DNA from: Nanoarchaeota archaeon
GTDB lineage: Archaea; EX4484-52; LFW-46
Length of the DNA stretch: 8,791 nucleotides
Direction of reading: 5' to 3'
Assembly: GCA_018897155.1 (NCBI GenBank)
Contig: JAHILE010000004.1
Coordinates: forward strand, 1-8,791
Shown: piece after piece, positions 2,771 through 8,664 of the stretch
How the letters are laid out: each line of letters begins with the position of its first letter
Numbering within the stretch: the stretch's first letter is position 1
Program-made: the position numbers and the translations under genes
Notes under the pieces: generated by a model
Told to the model about the DNA's origin: nothing
What the model saw: only the letters and a program-made list of their open reading frames with translations
The model's database searches: none

Positions 2771-2789
2771 TTATATAAACTTTCTTTGG
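2771..2789 (+). promoter_or_regulatory. GNAT-1 promoter (TATA box)
   Basis: TTATATAAACTTTCTTTGG lies about 40 bases before the GNAT ATG at 2812 and is nearly identical to the sequence before the second GNAT gene (7912-7930, with one T for A). Retention in both units, although the flippase upstream is deleted in unit B, suggests the GNAT gene has its own promoter. Confidence 0.55.
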
Positions 2790-2811: not shown

Positions 2812-3384
2812 ATGAATGAACGCATCTCATCGGAAGATTTGCGAAGAGAGCAATTATCCGAAAAGCACAGAGGGATACTCAACAGCTTTGAAACCGATGA
2901 AACCGAACTCAAAAAGTTTCTTATCGAGGACGCATTGAATAATCAGGATTTGGCTATCTCGAATACCTATGTCTGGTTTTACAACCCGAAAAACGAGCTT
3001 GCAGGATACATGACCCTTCTCTCTGATGCCATACGAGTACATGGAACGAGCTTAGGACAGTCGTTCCTTGACAAAGGCGTGGCATATAAGACGCTTCCGG
3101 CGCTGAAAATCGGCAGGATGTGCGTTGATAAAAAATATTTACGAAAAGGCATCGGTACTGAGATGATCGCATTTGCCGCAAGAACGCTGCTTGAAATCAA
3201 CGAAAGAATAGGGTGCCGCTACGTTGTGGCTGATGCAAAGCAGGATGCCAAGCATTTTTACAATAAGCTGAACTTTCTAATCTTGAAAGATCGTGAGAAA
3301 GGAACTGTTCCAATGTTCTTTGATATGATGAGAACAATAAGATACCAAAGGCAATTAAGAAAGAACGAGGAGGAATTACGATAA
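2812..3384 (+). CDS. GNAT-family N-acetyltransferase, TacT-like toxin candidate
   Basis: A 190-residue GNAT acetyltransferase. The layout matches the TacT/AtaT-type toxins, which acetylate aminoacyl-tRNA: an N-terminal FETDETELKKFLIEDA segment (26-41), then NTYVWFYN and ELAGYMTL, then the core KIGRMCVDKKYLRKGIGT with acetyl-CoA-binding G113-I-G115, and a HFYNKLNF segment with the usual Tyr (Y150). The first position of the Q/R-x-x-G-x-G motif appears to be Leu (L110) rather than Gln or Arg. It has its own TATA box and no upstream ribbon-helix-helix antitoxin. Instead a 47-residue gene faces it 44 bases downstream on the other strand, an arrangement repeated at 7955-8664. The GNAT family call is firm; the toxin role is inferred from sequence pattern and context. 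Confidence 0.85.
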   Translation: MNERISSEDLRREQLSEKHRGILNSFETDETELKKFLIEDALNNQDLAISNTYVWFYNPKNELAGYMTLLSDAIRVHGTSLGQSFLDKGVAYKTLPALKIGRMCVDKKYLRKGIGTEMIAFAARTLLEINERIGCRYVVADAKQDAKHFYNKLNFLILKDREKGTVPMFFDMMRTIRYQRQLRKNEEELR

Positions 3385-3428
3385 AACATTACAATCCGTG
3401 ATTCCGACGCAGATGAAAAGCTACAGAA

Positions 3429-3572
3429 TTAAACCTTTACTTCAAGTATTCTTTTGGCTATTTCGATGTCTTTCGGTGTCAGTTTGCCGGTCTCCGCTTC
3501 CTTCATTTGCTTAAGGAATCGCTGGGCCCAGACACCTTTTAGCTCGGGCGTTGCCCTGATTGGTTTTGCCAT
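3429..3572 (-). CDS. Small conserved protein convergent with GNAT, putative antitoxin
   Basis: A 47-residue protein starting MAKPIRATPELKG, followed by a predicted amphipathic helix (about 14-27) and a second (LTPKDIEIAKRILEVK). No known domain is recognised with certainty; it shows no ribbon-helix-helix or AbrB pattern. The homologue at 8515-8664 shares MAKPIRATP, L-K/R-G, FL-x-x-M, the T-x-x-D-x-E motif and AKR, and faces the other GNAT gene in the same way. Two diverged but conserved copies indicate that it is really coding. Start support: TTGTGATTATATG gives a GTGAT ribosome site, and a TATA-like CTTTTTAAACT lies 30-40 bases upstream. Antitoxin function is inferred from linkage, size and charge. 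Confidence 0.75.
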   Translation of the reverse strand: MAKPIRATPELKGVWAQRFLKQMKEAETGKLTPKDIEIAKRILEVKV

Positions 3573-3601
3573 ATAATCACAATAGGTTATTATGCGCCGC
3601 A

Positions 3602-3612
3602 GTTTAAAAAGA
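3602..3612 (-). promoter_or_regulatory. TATA-like box for the small convergent gene
   Basis: On the minus strand CTTTTTAAACT lies 30-40 bases before the ATG at 3572, followed by GTGAT directly ahead of the start. A near-identical box, CCTTTTTAAACC, precedes the PIN-partner gene at a similar distance (6749-6760). No experimental support. Confidence 0.45.
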
Positions 3613-3775: not shown

Positions 3776-4261
3776 TCAATCATGATTTCTGTTTATGACC
3801 GCAAATATGTTTTGCAGAAACTTTCGTGCATTCTCCGCGGATTCATTCGCAAAAGGCAGATTCGCCTGCGGAAGCGTCTGGTATGTAAAGTGCCCTCGTT
3901 TCCATTTTTCCTTTCCGAACAGATTGAGAAGCTCGTCTGCAGTGACAATCATCTTCTTGTAAATGTTCAAAAGTTCAAAATCAAGTATCCCTGTATCTAC
4001 AAATGCTTTTTTGAATTCGTCGATTGTTTTCTTATGGATTTCCGGCGGCTTGGCGTCTATTCCTTTTGTAAGCAGCAGCGCTTTAGCTGCGTAGAATATG
4101 GCATAATAGGCATGAGATATTACTGCGCTATAAAATGTATCACTTTTTTCTGCCTGGAGCTGTTTCTTCAAATCCTCATTTCCGGAGAGCAAAAGCAGGG
4201 ACTTTGCAAGACGCAGTTCATTTTCAGACCGTTCCAGATACAGCTTAACCATTGAATCCAT
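3776..4261 (-). CDS. HEPN-domain protein of MNT-HEPN pair
   Basis: A 161-residue, mostly helical protein of the HEPN family (PF05168-like). The hallmark helix SHAYYAIFYAAKALLL lies at about residues 49-64, followed by a helix around EIHKKTIDEFKKAF. It overlaps the nucleotidyltransferase gene upstream by 17 bases, the usual tight coupling of a two-gene MNT-HEPN operon. In studied pairs HEPN is the RNase toxin and MNT the antitoxin that AMPylates it. The canonical catalytic R-x(4-6)-H motif is not clearly present; only close R-G-H and R-N-H triplets occur near the C-terminal half. The protein may therefore be a HEPN partner without that RNase site. ATG at 4261 is used; ATG at 4252 is an alternative. 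Confidence 0.85.
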   Translation of the reverse strand: MDSMVKLYLERSENELRLAKSLLLLSGNEDLKKQLQAEKSDTFYSAVISHAYYAIFYAAKALLLTKGIDAKPPEIHKKTIDEFKKAFVDTGILDFELLNIYKKMIVTADELLNLFGKEKWKRGHFTYQTLPQANLPFANESAENARKFLQNIFAVINRNHD

Positions 4262-4856
4262 GCTTTCTCGCCTCGTTTATCGTGAGATAATAATTTTCTG
4301 CGCCGAAAAATATAAGCCTTTCTTTAAAGATGAACTTTGCGTAGTTTTCTTCTTTTGCAAGAAGCATTTCTAAGAATTCTTTTTGCGTAAACACATATGG
4401 ATGCACTTCGGGTATTAGAAGGCCGCCTTTGTTTTTCAGAGTGTTCAGAATTGATATCGTATCGTCGTTTGTGATAACTATGACGTCAAGGTCCGAATTT
4501 TTTGTTTCTGTTCCCTTTGCATAGCTTCCTGCGATTATCAGAGTGAAATATGCAGTATTTATGATTTTGAATATTTCATTGATGTTGGGGATTTCCCGTT
4601 CATTTGCTTCAAGCTCGTCCAAAAGAGAAAGGTATTTTATGGCGATGGCTGAATTAAGGTTAATCGTTACTATTTTAGAATGCCCCTTTTCTTCAAGATG
4701 CAAAATCCCGAGTTTTGAAAGCTTTTTTACCGCATTAAATGTCCATGAGTAAGAAGTTGTTTCTACTGCTTTTGAAATCTCCCGGATAGTATATGTCTTA
4801 AACAGCCTTTTCCTGAATATTTCGATTATTCTTAATTCTTTATTTGTCAGCATCAT
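4245..4856 (-). CDS. Winged-helix MNT-type nucleotidyltransferase (antitoxin of HEPN pair)
   Basis: A 203-residue protein in two parts. Residues 1-68 look like a winged helix-turn-helix (TIREISKAVETTSYSWTFNA, then a wing ending KIVTINLN). Residues about 90-203 form a minimal nucleotidyltransferase domain with GSYAKGTETKNSDLD: G110-S111 and the metal-binding pair D122 and D124. Stand-alone MNT proteins usually lack the DNA-binding part, so this one probably also represses its own operon. Three regularly spaced half-sites sit directly upstream. GTGAT precedes the start, which is one of two adjacent ATGs (4856 or 4853). It is the first gene of the operon with the HEPN gene. Confidence 0.87.
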   Translation of the reverse strand: MMLTNKELRIIEIFRKRLFKTYTIREISKAVETTSYSWTFNAVKKLSKLGILHLEEKGHSKIVTINLNSAIAIKYLSLLDELEANEREIPNINEIFKIINTAYFTLIIAGSYAKGTETKNSDLDVIVITNDDTISILNTLKNKGGLLIPEVHPYVFTQKEFLEMLLAKEENYAKFIFKERLIFFGAENYYLTINEARKHGFNG

Positions 4857-5583: not shown

Positions 5584-6075
5584 ATGCTTAAAAAAGTAAT
5601 GTTACTATATACACCGATAGCGCTTTATTTTGCCTTGACGGGCTGCGGTTGGTATGTGATAGATGATTTTATGCGAGCGAAAATCAACGGCTACATAACT
5701 TCAATAATGGAAGAATCCGCATTGATAAAGGACAGCGGGATGCTGTTTTTAGCGTCATTTGCAGGGAGCATATTCCTGTTCGTGGCAAACATCATGCTAT
5801 CAAAGCAGTTCGGCCCCGAAGGCTTCGGCAATTTCAAGACCGTGCTTTCGTTATTCTTGTTTCTTCCTGCTTTGATTGAATTCGGCGCAGGGGCTACACT
5901 AACAAAATACATCGCCGAAGGCAATACAGGGATAATTAAATGGTTTTTGAAGCTTCGCGTAGTAAGCTATGCGGTTGTAGAGATATTTGCGCATGGTTTC
6001 CGGAATGTTGTGAGTTTGGCGCTTGTGATTAGTGCATTCTCGACTTCGTACTTTGGCAGATGCGGTATCAAATAG
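5584..6075 (+). pseudogene. Flippase copy 2: head and tail joined, middle deleted
   Basis: An open frame of 163 codons that cannot be a complete flippase. From ATG 5671 to about 5977 it encodes the flippase head (MRAKINGYITSIMEE to LKLRVVSYAVV), in register with the intact gene. It then jumps to a sequence whose DNA resembles the flippase 3' end: FRNVV-SLALVI against QNIVLLGVSLAAMI, with about 12 bases missing. The internal loss is roughly 700-800 bases. Codons 5584-5670 (LKKVMLLYTPIALYFAL) look like a late flippase helix, compare IFAVYTPIVVLGVA in the intact copy, so a second fragment may be fused in front (weak). Bases 5803-5894 are identical to 1730-1821. The frame ends 5 bases before the convergent PIN gene. 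Confidence 0.7.
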
Positions 6076-6080
6076 GAAAG

Positions 6081-6530
6081 TTACTCCTCCAGATTCACGA
6101 CTTCAATTAAACCATAAACGCTTCTGGTATTGTAATGCGTATCAAACGTAATCAACTTCTTTGCTTCTGAAGTTGCAGCATCGGCAATTATTCTAACATC
6201 AGTAGAGCCCACTCTATACTCCAGTTCTTTTAGTTTTTGGAGCTTCTCTATGTAGTCTTCTATTTTCGGAGTATGGAGCCGGACACCTTTTAGCAGTATG
6301 GCAAGCTGTTCTATGGCGCTGTAAAATGCATCAAAATTCGTATTCGGATCGTACGCTTCCCTTATTGCTGCTCCGATTTCACCGATGACGAGATGAGAAA
6401 CACACGCCTCGTAAGTGCCGTTTTGCACCCGCCTAAGATACTGTAGTGCCTTTCTTGCTTGATTATCCGCCAATATCGCACTTACAAATATGGAGGAATC
6501 GATAAAATGCAGTCCGTCAAGATTAGGCAT
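6081..6530 (-). CDS. PIN-domain protein, VapC-like toxin candidate
   Basis: A 149-residue PIN-domain nuclease. The acidic residues expected for metal binding are all visible: D11 in FIDSSIF, E51 in VIGEI, D111 in GSTDVRIIADA and D130 in ITFDTHY. PIN toxins of VapBC systems cut tRNA or rRNA. ATG at 6530 is chosen over the TTG at 6542, because GAGGGAG lies directly ahead of it. A 54-residue gene ends 24 bases upstream on the same strand, so the two form a likely operon with the partner first, the normal antitoxin-toxin order. The catalytic set is complete, so the protein should be active. It converges on flippase copy 2. Confidence 0.88.
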   Translation of the reverse strand: MPNLDGLHFIDSSIFVSAILADNQARKALQYLRRVQNGTYEACVSHLVIGEIGAAIREAYDPNTNFDAFYSAIEQLAILLKGVRLHTPKIEDYIEKLQKLKELEYRVGSTDVRIIADAATSEAKKLITFDTHYNTRSVYGLIEVVNLEE

Positions 6531-6554
6531 ATTCTCCCTCAAGAAATACCGGCA

Positions 6555-6719
6555 TTAGAAAACAAATGCGCCTTTTTCCGCCTTAGCCCTTAAGCGCCTT
6601 AAGAGTTGCACTGCTGACTCATCCGGGTGCTTTCGCGCCGAGCGCGGTATCGGCTTAATTCCCAATGATGCGTACAGCTCCTCTAATGACATGCTATCGA
6701 CATCGATTTTATCATTCAT
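6555..6719 (-). CDS. Small protein upstream of PIN gene, putative antitoxin
   Basis: A 54-residue protein with an acidic N-terminal half (MNDKIDVDSMSLEELYASLG) and a strongly basic C-terminal half rich in Arg and Lys (LLRRLRAKAEKG). Acidic and basic segments of this size are common in toxin-binding antitoxins, but I see no AbrB or ribbon-helix-helix DNA-binding signature, so the family is unassigned. Start support: TTGTGATGATTATG gives a GTGAT ribosome site, and a TATA-like CCTTTTTAAACC lies 30-40 bases upstream (6749-6760). It is the first gene of a two-gene operon with the PIN gene, 24 bases apart. The antitoxin role is inferred from position and size. Confidence 0.7.
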   Translation of the reverse strand: MNDKIDVDSMSLEELYASLGIKPIPRSARKHPDESAVQLLRRLRAKAEKGAFVF

Positions 6720-6748
6720 AATCATCACAACCATTATATGTCTTTCGG

Positions 6749-6760: not shown

Positions 6761-6797
6761 TTAAATTCGATATGAGGGTGCATAGGAAGTCAGTTTT

Positions 6798-6970
6798 ATG
6801 CGAAAAAGAATCAACTGCTACATCAATTCAATAATGGAAGAATCCGCATTGATTAAGGACAGCGGAATGCTCTTTCTTGCAACATTTGCCGGAAGCTTGT
6901 TCCTGTTCGTTGCGAACATCATATTATCCAAGCAGTTCGGACGGATGGATTCGGGAATTTAAAAGCTTTT
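6798..6970 (+). pseudogene. Flippase copy 3: head fragment only, frameshifted
   Basis: ATG 6798 opens a 54-codon frame reading MRKRINCYINSIMEESALIK and on through LSKQFG, matching the first 46 or so residues of the intact flippase. A frame change just after SKQFG puts DGFGNLK, the counterpart of EGFGNFK, into another frame. The original frame stops at 6960-6962. Homology ends at about 6968, exactly where a 16-base palindrome and the relB promoter begin. Substitutions such as Gly to Cys in IN-C-Y mark this as the most worn head copy. Confidence 0.8.
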
Positions 6971-7003: not shown

Positions 7004-7261
7004 ATGATAGGTCAAGACTTAAAACCGAAGCAATTGTACAGCCAAAAAATTATTGGCAAGCTTCAAAGAGACTTAAATGCTTTTGATATTATGATGAAGA
7101 AGCGCATGCAGCTAATGAAGGATGAACTGGATGAGCTTTCTCTTGTAAACAATAAAGAATTAATGTCTGAATTAAAAAAATCCGAAGAAGATTTCAAAAA
7201 TGGCAGGGTTGTTCGCTGCAACAACAAGGAAGAAATGGAAAAACATTTTGAATCGCTTTGA
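7004..7261 (+). CDS. relB: RelB-family antitoxin (archaeal type)
   Basis: An 85-residue, mostly helical, highly charged protein. The segment NNKELMSELKKSEEDFKNGRV matches the archaeal RelB pattern in which a helix ending E-D-x-K-x-G-R-V wraps around RelE. The N-terminal part (to about residue 50) is a long helix rich in Lys and Met. The start at 7004 is preceded by GGCGAG and a TATA-like TTTTAAAC within a 16-base palindrome. It lies 11 bases before the broken relE gene (7273), the standard antitoxin-then-toxin order. The antitoxin frame is intact although its toxin is not, so the gene may survive as an orphan or guard against another RelE. Confidence 0.8.
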   Translation: MIGQDLKPKQLYSQKIIGKLQRDLNAFDIMMKKRMQLMKDELDELSLVNNKELMSELKKSEEDFKNGRVVRCNNKEEMEKHFESL

Positions 7262-7272
7262 AGGGTGTGCCG

Positions 7273-7463
7273 ATGTACCCTGTCGAATTCTCAGAGTATT
7301 TTAACGAGATATTGCGAAAATTAAAAAAGAAAGATTCTTCTCTTGCAATGCGTCTTTAAAAGGCAAAAGGAGAAAGCATATAGGACGCTATGTTCTAATG
7401 TTCTCGTTTGAATGCGGTGTTGTGCGCATGGAAGGATTTGCGCATCATGATGATGCGTATTAA
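7273..7463 (+). pseudogene. relE: relE toxin, copy B, broken by an out-of-frame internal deletion
   Basis: The first 28 codons read MYPVEFSEYFNEILRKLKKK and on to AMRL, the RelE N-terminal helices, then stop at 7357-7359. In the next frame from 7356 the sequence reads LKGKRRKHIGRYVLMF, then CGVVRMEGFAHHDDAY and a stop at 7461-7463. This is the characteristic C-terminal half of archaeal RelE (compare the LKGRRRVHIG...FDHHDKVY pattern). Together the pieces give about 63 codons against a usual 85-90, so some 60-70 bases between AMRL and LKGK are gone and the frame is broken. The exact same break is present in copy A at the start of the window. It directly follows relB. Confidence 0.78.
7300..7389 (+). 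repeat. 90-base perfect direct repeat (also at 6-95)
   Basis: Bases 7300-7389 and 6-95 are identical at every position and lie 7294 bases apart, in the same orientation. The repeat covers the middle of the broken relE including its deletion junction. Sequences immediately outside differ. It is the longest perfect repeat I find in the window. Confidence 0.95.
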
Positions 7464-7498: not shown

Positions 7499-7527
7499 GT
7501 TGCTTCTAATGAATGGTTACGATGTTT

Positions 7528-7935
7528 ATGCGAGCAAGAATCAACGGTTATATCAATTCAATAATGGAAGAATCCGCACTGATAAAGGACAGCGGAATGC
7601 TCTTTCTTGCGGCTTTTGCCGGGAGTTTGTTCTTGTTCGTTGCGAACATTATATTATCGAAGCAGTTCGGGCCCGAAGGCTTTGGAAACTTCAAGACGGT
7701 ACTCTCATTATTCTTATTTCTTCCTGCACTGATAGAATTCGGCGCAAGTGCCACACTAACAAAATACATCGCAGAGGGCAATACAGGGATAATTAAATGG
7801 TTCCTGAAGCTTCGTGTAATAAGCTATGCGGTTGTAGGGGTGTTGCTGTTCATATTCCGGGAGCAGATAGCCGCCGTGTTTCTCAAAAATGAATCGCGGA
7901 GCTATTGCGATTTATATATACTTTCTTTGGCGTAA
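7528..7935 (+). pseudogene. Flippase copy 4: head fragment fused to GNAT leader
   Basis: ATG 7528 opens the flippase head, MRARINGYINSIMEE through REQIAAVFLKNE (about 122 residues). Near 7893 the coding match stops, and the DNA continues as the counterpart of the spacer between flippase and GNAT in unit A, including the TATATACTTTCTTTGG box. About 800 bases of flippase are therefore deleted, and the frame runs out at 7935 in non-homologous residues. Bases 7558-7632 are identical to 1628-1702. An alternative start at 7513 adds five residues. With perhaps three membrane helices left it cannot act as a flippase. Confidence 0.78.
7911..7930 (+). promoter_or_regulatory. GNAT-2 promoter (TATA box)
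   Basis: TTTATATATACTTTCTTTGG lies 25-44 bases before the GNAT-2 start at 7955 and matches the GNAT-1 promoter at 2771-2789. A GTGAT ribosome site (7947-7951) follows. The promoter survived the deletion that removed most of the flippase. Confidence 0.55.
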
Positions 7936-7954: not shown

Positions 7955-8513
7955 ATGGCTGCTGCGCAGATTTCGCAATACGAACTGAGCGTGGAAAAGC
8001 TATCCGAAAAGCACAAATCCGTTCTTGAAAATTTCAAAACCGATAATGTGGAGCTCAAAAAATTTCTTGTTGAAGATGCTTTGAAAAATCAGGGGCTGAA
8101 TATATCGAATACATATCTTTGGTTCTATACGCCCAATAATGAGTTTGTGGCGTATCTGACAATCCTTGCAGACGCCATAGGCATTCATGGCACAGGACTG
8201 GGCGAATATTTTTCAAGTCAAAGGCATATTTTACAAAACTCTTCCGGCGCTCAAAATCGGACGTATTTGCGTGCATAGCGAATACTCCGGAAGGGGTATA
8301 GGAACGCACATGATAGACTTTGCCACGGTAAAGGCGTTCATGTTAAGCGAAGAGGTAGGATGCAGGTTTATCTCAACAGATGCAAAAAGGGATGCCATTC
8401 ACTTCTATAAAAAGAACGGATTTGAGATATTAAGAACACGCGAAAAAGGCACCATTCCTATGTATTTTGATCTTGTGAAGCAGCTGGAAATAAGGAATAA
8501 ACGAATTATATAA
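7955..8513 (+). pseudogene. GNAT acetyltransferase, copy 2, single frameshift
   Basis: A homologue of the GNAT at 2812, split between two frames. The first (ATG 7955 to about 8213) carries KLSEKHKSVLENFKTD, ELKKFLVEDALKNQ and NTYLWFY up to GLGEYF. The second (from about 8214) carries VKGIFYKTLPALKIGRICVH, the acetyl-CoA loop SGRGIGTHM, and HFYKKNGFEI with the usual Tyr. Removing one T from the run of five at 8209-8213 restores one frame of about 185 codons, so there is one extra base. This may be a real mutation, a phase-variable tract or a sequencing error; nothing else in the gene looks damaged. The GTGAT before ATG 7955 supports that start over 7943. The gene ends one base before the convergent small gene. 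Confidence 0.8.
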
Positions 8514-8514
8514 A

Positions 8515-8664
8515 TTATGCGTAAAGCTTGAATTCCTTTAATCTCTTTGCCAATTCCAAGTCCCTTTTCGTTATCGGAGCCTGCTCTCTTTCACGCATTT
8601 TCCTAAGGAACTCTACCGCTTCCCTGCCCCGAAGCGTCGGTGTTGCACGTATTGGTTTTGCCAT
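8515..8664 (-). CDS. Small conserved protein convergent with GNAT-2, putative antitoxin
   Basis: A 49-residue homologue of the protein at 3429-3572. Shared positions include MAKPIRATP at the start, L-R-G, FLRKM (against FLKQM), a Thr-x-x-Asp-x-Glu motif and AKR near the end. It is basic and probably helical from about residue 14. The stop codon lies one base from the stop of the GNAT-2 frame, so the two transcripts must overlap at their ends. The reading frame is intact although its GNAT neighbour is frameshifted. The ribosome-site candidate is GATGATT before the ATG; no clear TATA box was seen at the usual distance. Function is inferred only from linkage to GNAT. Confidence 0.75.
   Translation of the reverse strand: MAKPIRATPTLRGREAVEFLRKMREREQAPITKRDLELAKRLKEFKLYA

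Follow-up and report, generated by a model that had tools for sequence, protein, structure and literature searches.

GNAT toxins that are paired with ribbon-helix-helix (RHH; DUF1778) or DUF4065 antitoxins are already known, and contig JAHILE010000004.1 of the Nanoarchaeota archaeon assembly GCA_018897155.1 raises the question of whether a toxin-like GNAT can instead be held in check by a protein of about 50 residues encoded on the opposite strand. The window analysed here is the whole of this contig (8,791 nucleotides), one of the 62 contigs of a 1.43-Mb archaeal genome. In this window, GNAT genes on the forward strand meet, tail to tail, reverse-strand genes for small proteins that begin with MAKPIRATP, which is an unusual layout for a toxin and a protein antidote. 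We consider it likely that the two genes constitute a toxin-antitoxin module resembling type II, with an antitoxin that is minimal and not of the RHH kind and with a conserved convergent layout, in which the GNAT would be toxic and the small protein would bind and neutralize it; the pair is not a proven type II system. The small convergent protein was proposed as a possible antitoxin in an initial annotation made from the DNA letters, and it remains the likely candidate after computational tests of pairing, of asymmetric gene loss and of the toxin-like character of the GNAT.

Pairing of the GNAT gene with the small gene

GNAT 1 (positions 2812–3384, forward strand) encodes a 190-residue acetyltransferase that appears toxin-like (TacT/AtaT group) from its Pfam, PDB-profile and fold matches. 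The candidate antitoxin gene that converges on it, small gene 1 (3429–3572, reverse strand), encodes 47 residues, and 44 bases (3385–3428) separate the two stop codons. At the second locus, small gene 2 (8515–8664, reverse strand; 49 residues) is intact and lies 1 base from the stop of GNAT 2 (about 7955–8513, forward strand), which is divided between two overlapping frames that meet near 8187–8220. The coordinates and the 44- and 1-base gaps given in the initial annotation, with each GNAT facing a MAKPIRATP protein on the opposite strand, are confirmed. Its count of two GNAT genes holds for the loci and not for the frames: GNAT 2 is not an intact frame, owing either to a frameshift in the gene or to a homopolymer run that was misassembled. 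Whole-genome searches find exactly three small-protein loci in this genome and GNATs at the same three; the third pair, on another contig (C45), is convergent with a 2-base gap. The three small proteins have 22 invariant positions in common, MAKPIRATP included. The closest GNAT outside this genome, which is 87% identical, is found in a metagenome-assembled genome of Candidatus Nanohalarchaeota.

When species-representative genomes were scanned with a profile of the small protein, 50 loci were recovered, mostly from DPANN archaea (Woesearchaeota, Nanoarchaeota, Pacearchaeota, Diapherotrites, Micrarchaeota, Nanohaloarchaeota and Aenigmarchaeota), and in most of them a GNAT is encoded on the other strand, the two stop codons abutting or overlapping by 4–30 nt. 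On visual inspection, two weak hits (L019 and L021) look like ribosomal protein L5, and they were counted as false. Because the 50 loci had been selected by the small protein itself, two independent searches, one with a GNAT profile and one with the small-protein profile, were run across 371 genomes of the phylum of genome G056. The GNAT is patchily distributed, being present in 30 of these genomes, and a small gene adjoins 36 of the 38 GNATs; the other two GNATs begin at bases 66 and 152 of their own contigs, that is, at contig ends. In the phylum of the window, all nine GNAT-bearing genomes also carry the small protein, one of them solely as a decayed copy next to a decayed GNAT. For GNAT paralogues that were recovered by GNAT similarity alone, there is likewise a small partner; it carries the variant MARPIEPTPTLEGKDAENF and is arranged in the ordinary tandem order. 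With three of three GNATs paired in its own genome and 36 of 38 elsewhere, the pairing is far beyond chance, and the maintenance of an adjacent partner gene across genomes is as expected of type II toxin-antitoxin systems. The count of adjacency and orientation in archaeal genomes, a check that had been proposed together with the annotation, finds the small protein rarely away from a GNAT and upholds its description as the conserved partner.

Loss of the two genes is asymmetric. Eight small genes in the 371-genome set lack a GNAT, at least one of them by a contig end. GNAT remnants occupy the expected convergent place next to four orphan small genes (L011, L033, L041 and L063), and the other orphans show none. 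In a Paenibacillus relative (Paenibacillus sp. 37), the small gene is intact and the adjacent GNAT match covers the first 30 residues only. Small gene 2 of the window likewise stays intact next to a GNAT that is frameshifted or misassembled. Neither in the 371 genomes nor at the other loci was an intact GNAT without a small gene seen away from contig ends. A small gene that outlasts a broken or lost GNAT, with the reverse not seen, fits a small protein that is the antidote and a GNAT that is the toxin. One contig (C3 of genome G266, L154) carries two small genes with a GNAT only at the first; the second (1373–1510) is an orphan about 260 bases past the GNAT start.

Gene order, promoters and 3′ ends

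The 36 pairs comprise 24 that are convergent, 10 in tandem with the small gene before the GNAT and 2 in tandem with the GNAT first. The convergent orientation stressed in the initial annotation is thus that of the majority and is not universal; both tandem orders occur among relatives, and those seen in bacteria and phages are in tandem. A single operon, which is typical of type II systems and not strictly defining for them, is not the arrangement of the window pairs or of the 24 convergent pairs, the remaining 12 being tandem. In a tree of the GNATs with RHH-partnered GNATs as the root, the earliest branches are bacterial, phage and archaeal lineages in tandem, the small gene coming before the GNAT. 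The convergent loci fall into a single group (support 88); within it, three Micrarchaeota/ainarchaeum loci (support 100) and L071 are again in tandem order. Three changes among layouts are required, a count that is approximate because the tree is a quick one with some long branches.

Bacteroides phage BS-TP1 (E = 4e-9), a Paenibacillus plasmid (E = 1e-7), Vibrio phage Ch457 (ORF14e, E = 3e-4) and a Rahnella plasmid (E = 3e-3, or 6e-6 with a profile that includes Paenibacillus) encode a homologue of the small protein ahead of a GNAT, and a core of roughly L-x-G-K-D-A-x-x-F is common to the homologues. As these relatives from bacteria, plasmids and phages precede their GNATs in ordinary operons, the convergent layout appears to have arisen from a conventional operon with the antitoxin first and the toxin second, with later reversals. 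On the Rahnella sikkimica plasmid (L175), the small open reading frame (613–816) upstream of the annotated GNAT gene is itself unannotated, which suggests that the small partner is often overlooked by annotation. Weak plasmid matches of the small protein in Leptospira and Clostridioides, as well as a match in Geobacillus virus E3, have no GNAT alongside and were set aside. A scan of viral contigs gave no match with the small-protein profile and none with the TacA-type P0004, and the look-alikes on viral contigs L146 and L147 are at chance level. Ahead of the GNATs of a Listeria and an Acinetobacter phage lie other short open reading frames (686–865 of L172 and 718–867 of L173, respectively), which do not match the small family and are possibly further unrecognised antitoxins.

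Across the convergent loci, a TATA-like element is located 22–38 nt before the ATG in 57% of the small genes, compared with 14% in shuffles, and at −22 to −38 in 37% of the GNAT genes, compared with 11% in shuffles; each enrichment was reached in 0 of 1000 shuffles. In the window, such elements lie upstream of GNAT 1 (2771–2779, forward strand), small gene 1 (3601–3611; CTTTTTAAACT on the minus strand) and GNAT 2 (7911–7919, forward strand). The GNAT gene and the small gene therefore each appear to have their own, often leaderless, promoter.

The initial annotation had also raised antisense control, which would be an addition to a toxin-antitoxin module rather than a substitute for it. The facing 3′ ends could make the two mRNAs mutually antisense, as an excludon-like or type I-like layer, such that transcription of the toxin and of the antitoxin would be mutually exclusive. 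The excludon concept applies to convergent genes without terminators (PMC7154746), and here the convergent layout is held in two thirds of the pairs (24 of 36) and through a deep clade, the TATA promoters face each other, and there is little or no space for terminators between the genes. However, most of the 3′ overlaps are merely 4–30 nt of coding sequence, pair 1 has a 44-base gap, pairing persists in loci that lack an overlap, and the tandem relatives manage without one. In type I systems the antitoxin is an antisense RNA, whereas the partner of the GNAT is a coding gene under purifying selection, with a dN/dS (ratio of nonsynonymous to synonymous substitution rates) of about 0.03–0.28 in comparable pairs, and is therefore a real protein. 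We regard such an antisense layer as rather unlikely. It is equally doubtful that the convergent layout is a control device in which the antitoxin mRNA acts against the toxin mRNA at the 3′ ends, a type II/antisense hybrid that would replace, in DPANN archaea, the autoregulation lost with the RHH domain.

Nature of the GNAT and of its small partner

The window GNAT matches Pfam Acetyltransf_10, Acetyltransf_7 and Acetyltransf_1 above cut-off, all of which are generic GNAT domains. When a profile of 36 relatives was compared with the PDB, the 15 best matches were GNAT-toxin chains (AtaT, KacT, TacT and others), and PaiA ranked 16th. Tyr150 of GNAT 1, in the motif FYNKLNF, aligns with the FYK tyrosine of AtaT, as does the conserved FY of the FYKKLGF motif in the relatives. 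The aligned tyrosine is a phenylalanine in 6gtq, the entry of AtaT Y144F, which is the catalytic mutant used in AtaT structures. Consistent with a catalytic tyrosine and an acetyl-CoA loop, Y150 and G115 are invariant and G113 is nearly invariant. For the predicted structure of the relative L071, VIA-align ranks 1–18 are toxin GNAT entries (Z 15.2–17.5), with non-toxin GNATs starting at Z 12.5 and below, and Foldseek agrees. PHROG 1758 (acetyltransferase) matches the window GNAT with E = 1.4e-32, and among the matches listed in a plasmid search with this GNAT, most adjoin a DUF1778 gene. These sequence and model comparisons support the TacT/AtaT assignment of the initial annotation: the GNAT groups with the tRNA-acetylating toxins AtaT, KacT and TacT rather than with housekeeping or other non-toxin acetyltransferases, and by analogy it may acetylate aminoacyl-tRNA and arrest growth.

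Alternatively, the GNAT may be a regulated, non-toxin acetyltransferase of a protein, the ribosome or a small molecule, with the small protein as its stable subunit, activator or dedicated regulator. The general Pfam families of the GNAT would agree with such an enzyme, and obligate pairing and covariation suit any enzyme of two subunits. We nevertheless find this improbable, since toxins account for every one of the best matches in sequence and in fold, with housekeeping GNATs ranked far below, and a subunit is not expected to outlive its enzyme so often. A patchy presence (30 of the 371 genomes), several divergent copies in one genome, GNATs that often decay and a neighbourhood of toxin-antitoxin modules are also typical of toxin-antitoxin systems.

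The small protein has no match to any Pfam, NCBIfam or PADLOC family, and on that ground it was rejected as an RHH or other known antitoxin. The Pfam scan detects no RHH domain, no PF08681 and no recognised DNA-binding domain in the small proteins, and a comparison of their profile with the PDB gives no match. In this respect the GNAT indeed lacks an RHH partner, as the initial annotation had stated. A search for PF08681 in 34 genomes of the phylum was blank, but control genomes were equally blank, so the search says nothing on absence. PHROG 13585 (52 residues), for which PHROGs gives no function, matches the small protein with E = 4.6e-5. Predicted alone, the small protein consists of an extended N-terminus, containing the conserved MAKPIRATPTL, and two helices, with a mean predicted local distance difference test score (pLDDT) of 82 (83 for the N-terminus). 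An identity as a free-standing TacA tail, attractive by eye, is not significantly supported: the local alignment is in the same register, but its score was equalled in 37 of 150 column shuffles.

The pairwise distances of the GNAT and the small protein correlate, with a Mantel r of 0.86 over 42 pairs (0 of 2000 permutations) and 0.63 among pairs that are more than 35% divergent. A hint of contact comes from L071, where the GNAT and the small gene lie in one frame with two stops between them; the stops were read as serine as a docking device only, and the resulting chain is not claimed to exist as a made protein. The fusion alignment was unpaired and drew on three natural in-frame fusions, with the GNAT tails trimmed. 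AlphaFold2 predicts the GNAT-linker-small chain with a predicted template-modelling score (pTM) of 0.81, a pLDDT mostly of 82–91 in the small part and around 50 in the linker. Several toxin chains align up to residues 284–292 of this model, within the small segment, which is consistent with a small protein packed on the GNAT. The pTM and the structural alignments are better hints of contact than the pLDDT values.

Several points weigh against a toxin-antitoxin module. Its support is entirely computational. The link between the small protein and the toxin-binding tail of TacA-type antitoxins is not significant, and the small genes that stand alone with no GNAT remnant, of which there are several, may have another role there or be leftovers. 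The Mantel correlation partly reflects the common ancestry that linked genes have. Evidence for docking is indirect, coming from the pTM, the pLDDT values and the structural alignments of the fusion model. The small protein reaches a mean pLDDT of 82 already when alone, so a clear gain in the fusion is confined to its C-terminal half; therefore, the confidence values by themselves prove little.

Convergence could also be devoid of functional meaning, with two neighbours co-inherited after a single ancestral inversion, and the tree is compatible with one main origin of the convergent clade. This is very improbable: as an account of the partnership it is weakened by a pair that has remained together despite several rearrangements of gene order, transfer between phyla, duplication into paralogues and decay, and by the covariation of the two proteins, whereas the orientation itself may be neutral. 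Reversed roles, with the small peptide as the toxin and the GNAT as an immunity enzyme that acetylates it, would suit a short protein with a strongly conserved N-terminus, and some GNATs acetylate peptide antibiotics, but they are hardly credible: the small gene is often retained where the GNAT is broken or missing, no intact GNAT was seen without it, and the GNAT groups with toxins.

Proposed mechanism, related systems and surroundings

TacT, AtaT and KacT are known to acetylate aminoacyl-tRNA. For the toxin-antitoxin module favoured here, we infer that the GNAT would likewise acetylate the amino group of aminoacylated tRNA, upon which translation would stop, and that the small protein, through its extended N-terminus and two helices, would bind and block the GNAT. 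Without any recognised DNA-binding domain, the small protein would presumably not autoregulate the locus in the manner of RHH antitoxins. Instead, separate facing TATA promoters would set the ratio of toxin to antitoxin, in a layout in which, for most DPANN lineages, the two genes face each other with 3′ ends that abut or slightly overlap.

TacAT, AtaRT, KacAT and ItaRT (GNAT with a DUF1778 RHH protein) are likewise two-gene modules with a small partner. By sequence and fold, their GNATs appear to belong to the same toxin clade, with an FY..GF motif that holds the catalytic tyrosine, and the plasmid-borne, DUF1778-partnered GNATs are the next relatives. In contrast to these systems, in which the antitoxin is encoded upstream in one operon, the partner here has about 50 residues, lacks an RHH or other recognised DNA-binding domain, and is usually convergent with a promoter of its own. 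GNAT-RHH and GNAT-Xre pairs are listed in the accessible part of Makarova et al., 2009 (PMC2701414). In VcaA-VcaT (DUF4065-GNAT), as described in the accessible part of Bikmetov et al., 2022 (PMC9177977), the RHH antitoxin of a GNAT toxin is likewise replaced by another protein; the partner here is a two-helix mini-protein that is unrelated to DUF4065 by Pfam scan, and the layout differs. The same part of that paper mentions toxin-antitoxin-like GNAT loci outside the ‘true TA clade’, whose short upstream open reading frames are divergent and without DNA-binding domains and whose antitoxins had not been identified. The bacterial and phage relatives found here fit this account, to which they are likened by description only: a short open reading frame without a DNA-binding domain comes immediately ahead of a toxin-like GNAT. 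No family, motif or convergent layout is given in that part of the paper. Both proteins of the window have PHROG counterparts (1758 and 13585), and the phage relatives seen are tandem. The open-access literature searched contains no report of the small family and none of a protein antitoxin that is encoded convergently, which is not proof of absence, and describes no toxin-like GNAT module for DPANN archaea.

Other modules of toxin-antitoxin type share the window. Overlapping HEPN and nucleotidyltransferase (MNT) genes (3776–4856, reverse strand) form a HEPN-MNT toxin-antitoxin type pair, and a HEPN-MNT-like pair also precedes the small gene at L013. A PIN-domain (VapC-like) gene with an upstream gene of 59 residues (6555–6734) occupies 6081–6734 on the reverse strand and is probably a VapBC-type pair. 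These modules and the GNAT pairs lie between copies of the 5′ end of a polysaccharide flippase gene, one full (1595–2752) and three truncated (5668–5990, 6795–6960 and 7525–7890). In the genome, 12 pieces match this 5′ end, several of them at contig ends; copies are also present on contigs C5, C37 and C39 of G000 (L168–L170). A 98-base direct repeat (1–98 and 7295–7392; 97%) carries the apparent truncated start of a RelE-like toxin frame, and a DUF2683-like gene (7004–7261) adjoins it.

The small family is a suggested partner for GNAT toxins without RHH antitoxins, a gap that PMC9177977 leaves, and the pairs extend toxin-like GNATs to DPANN archaea. A partnership that is kept across the switch from an operon to facing genes separates what is needed, the two proteins, from what is optional, a shared operon and autoregulation. 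If the small protein does neutralize the GNAT, it would be a very small antitoxin.
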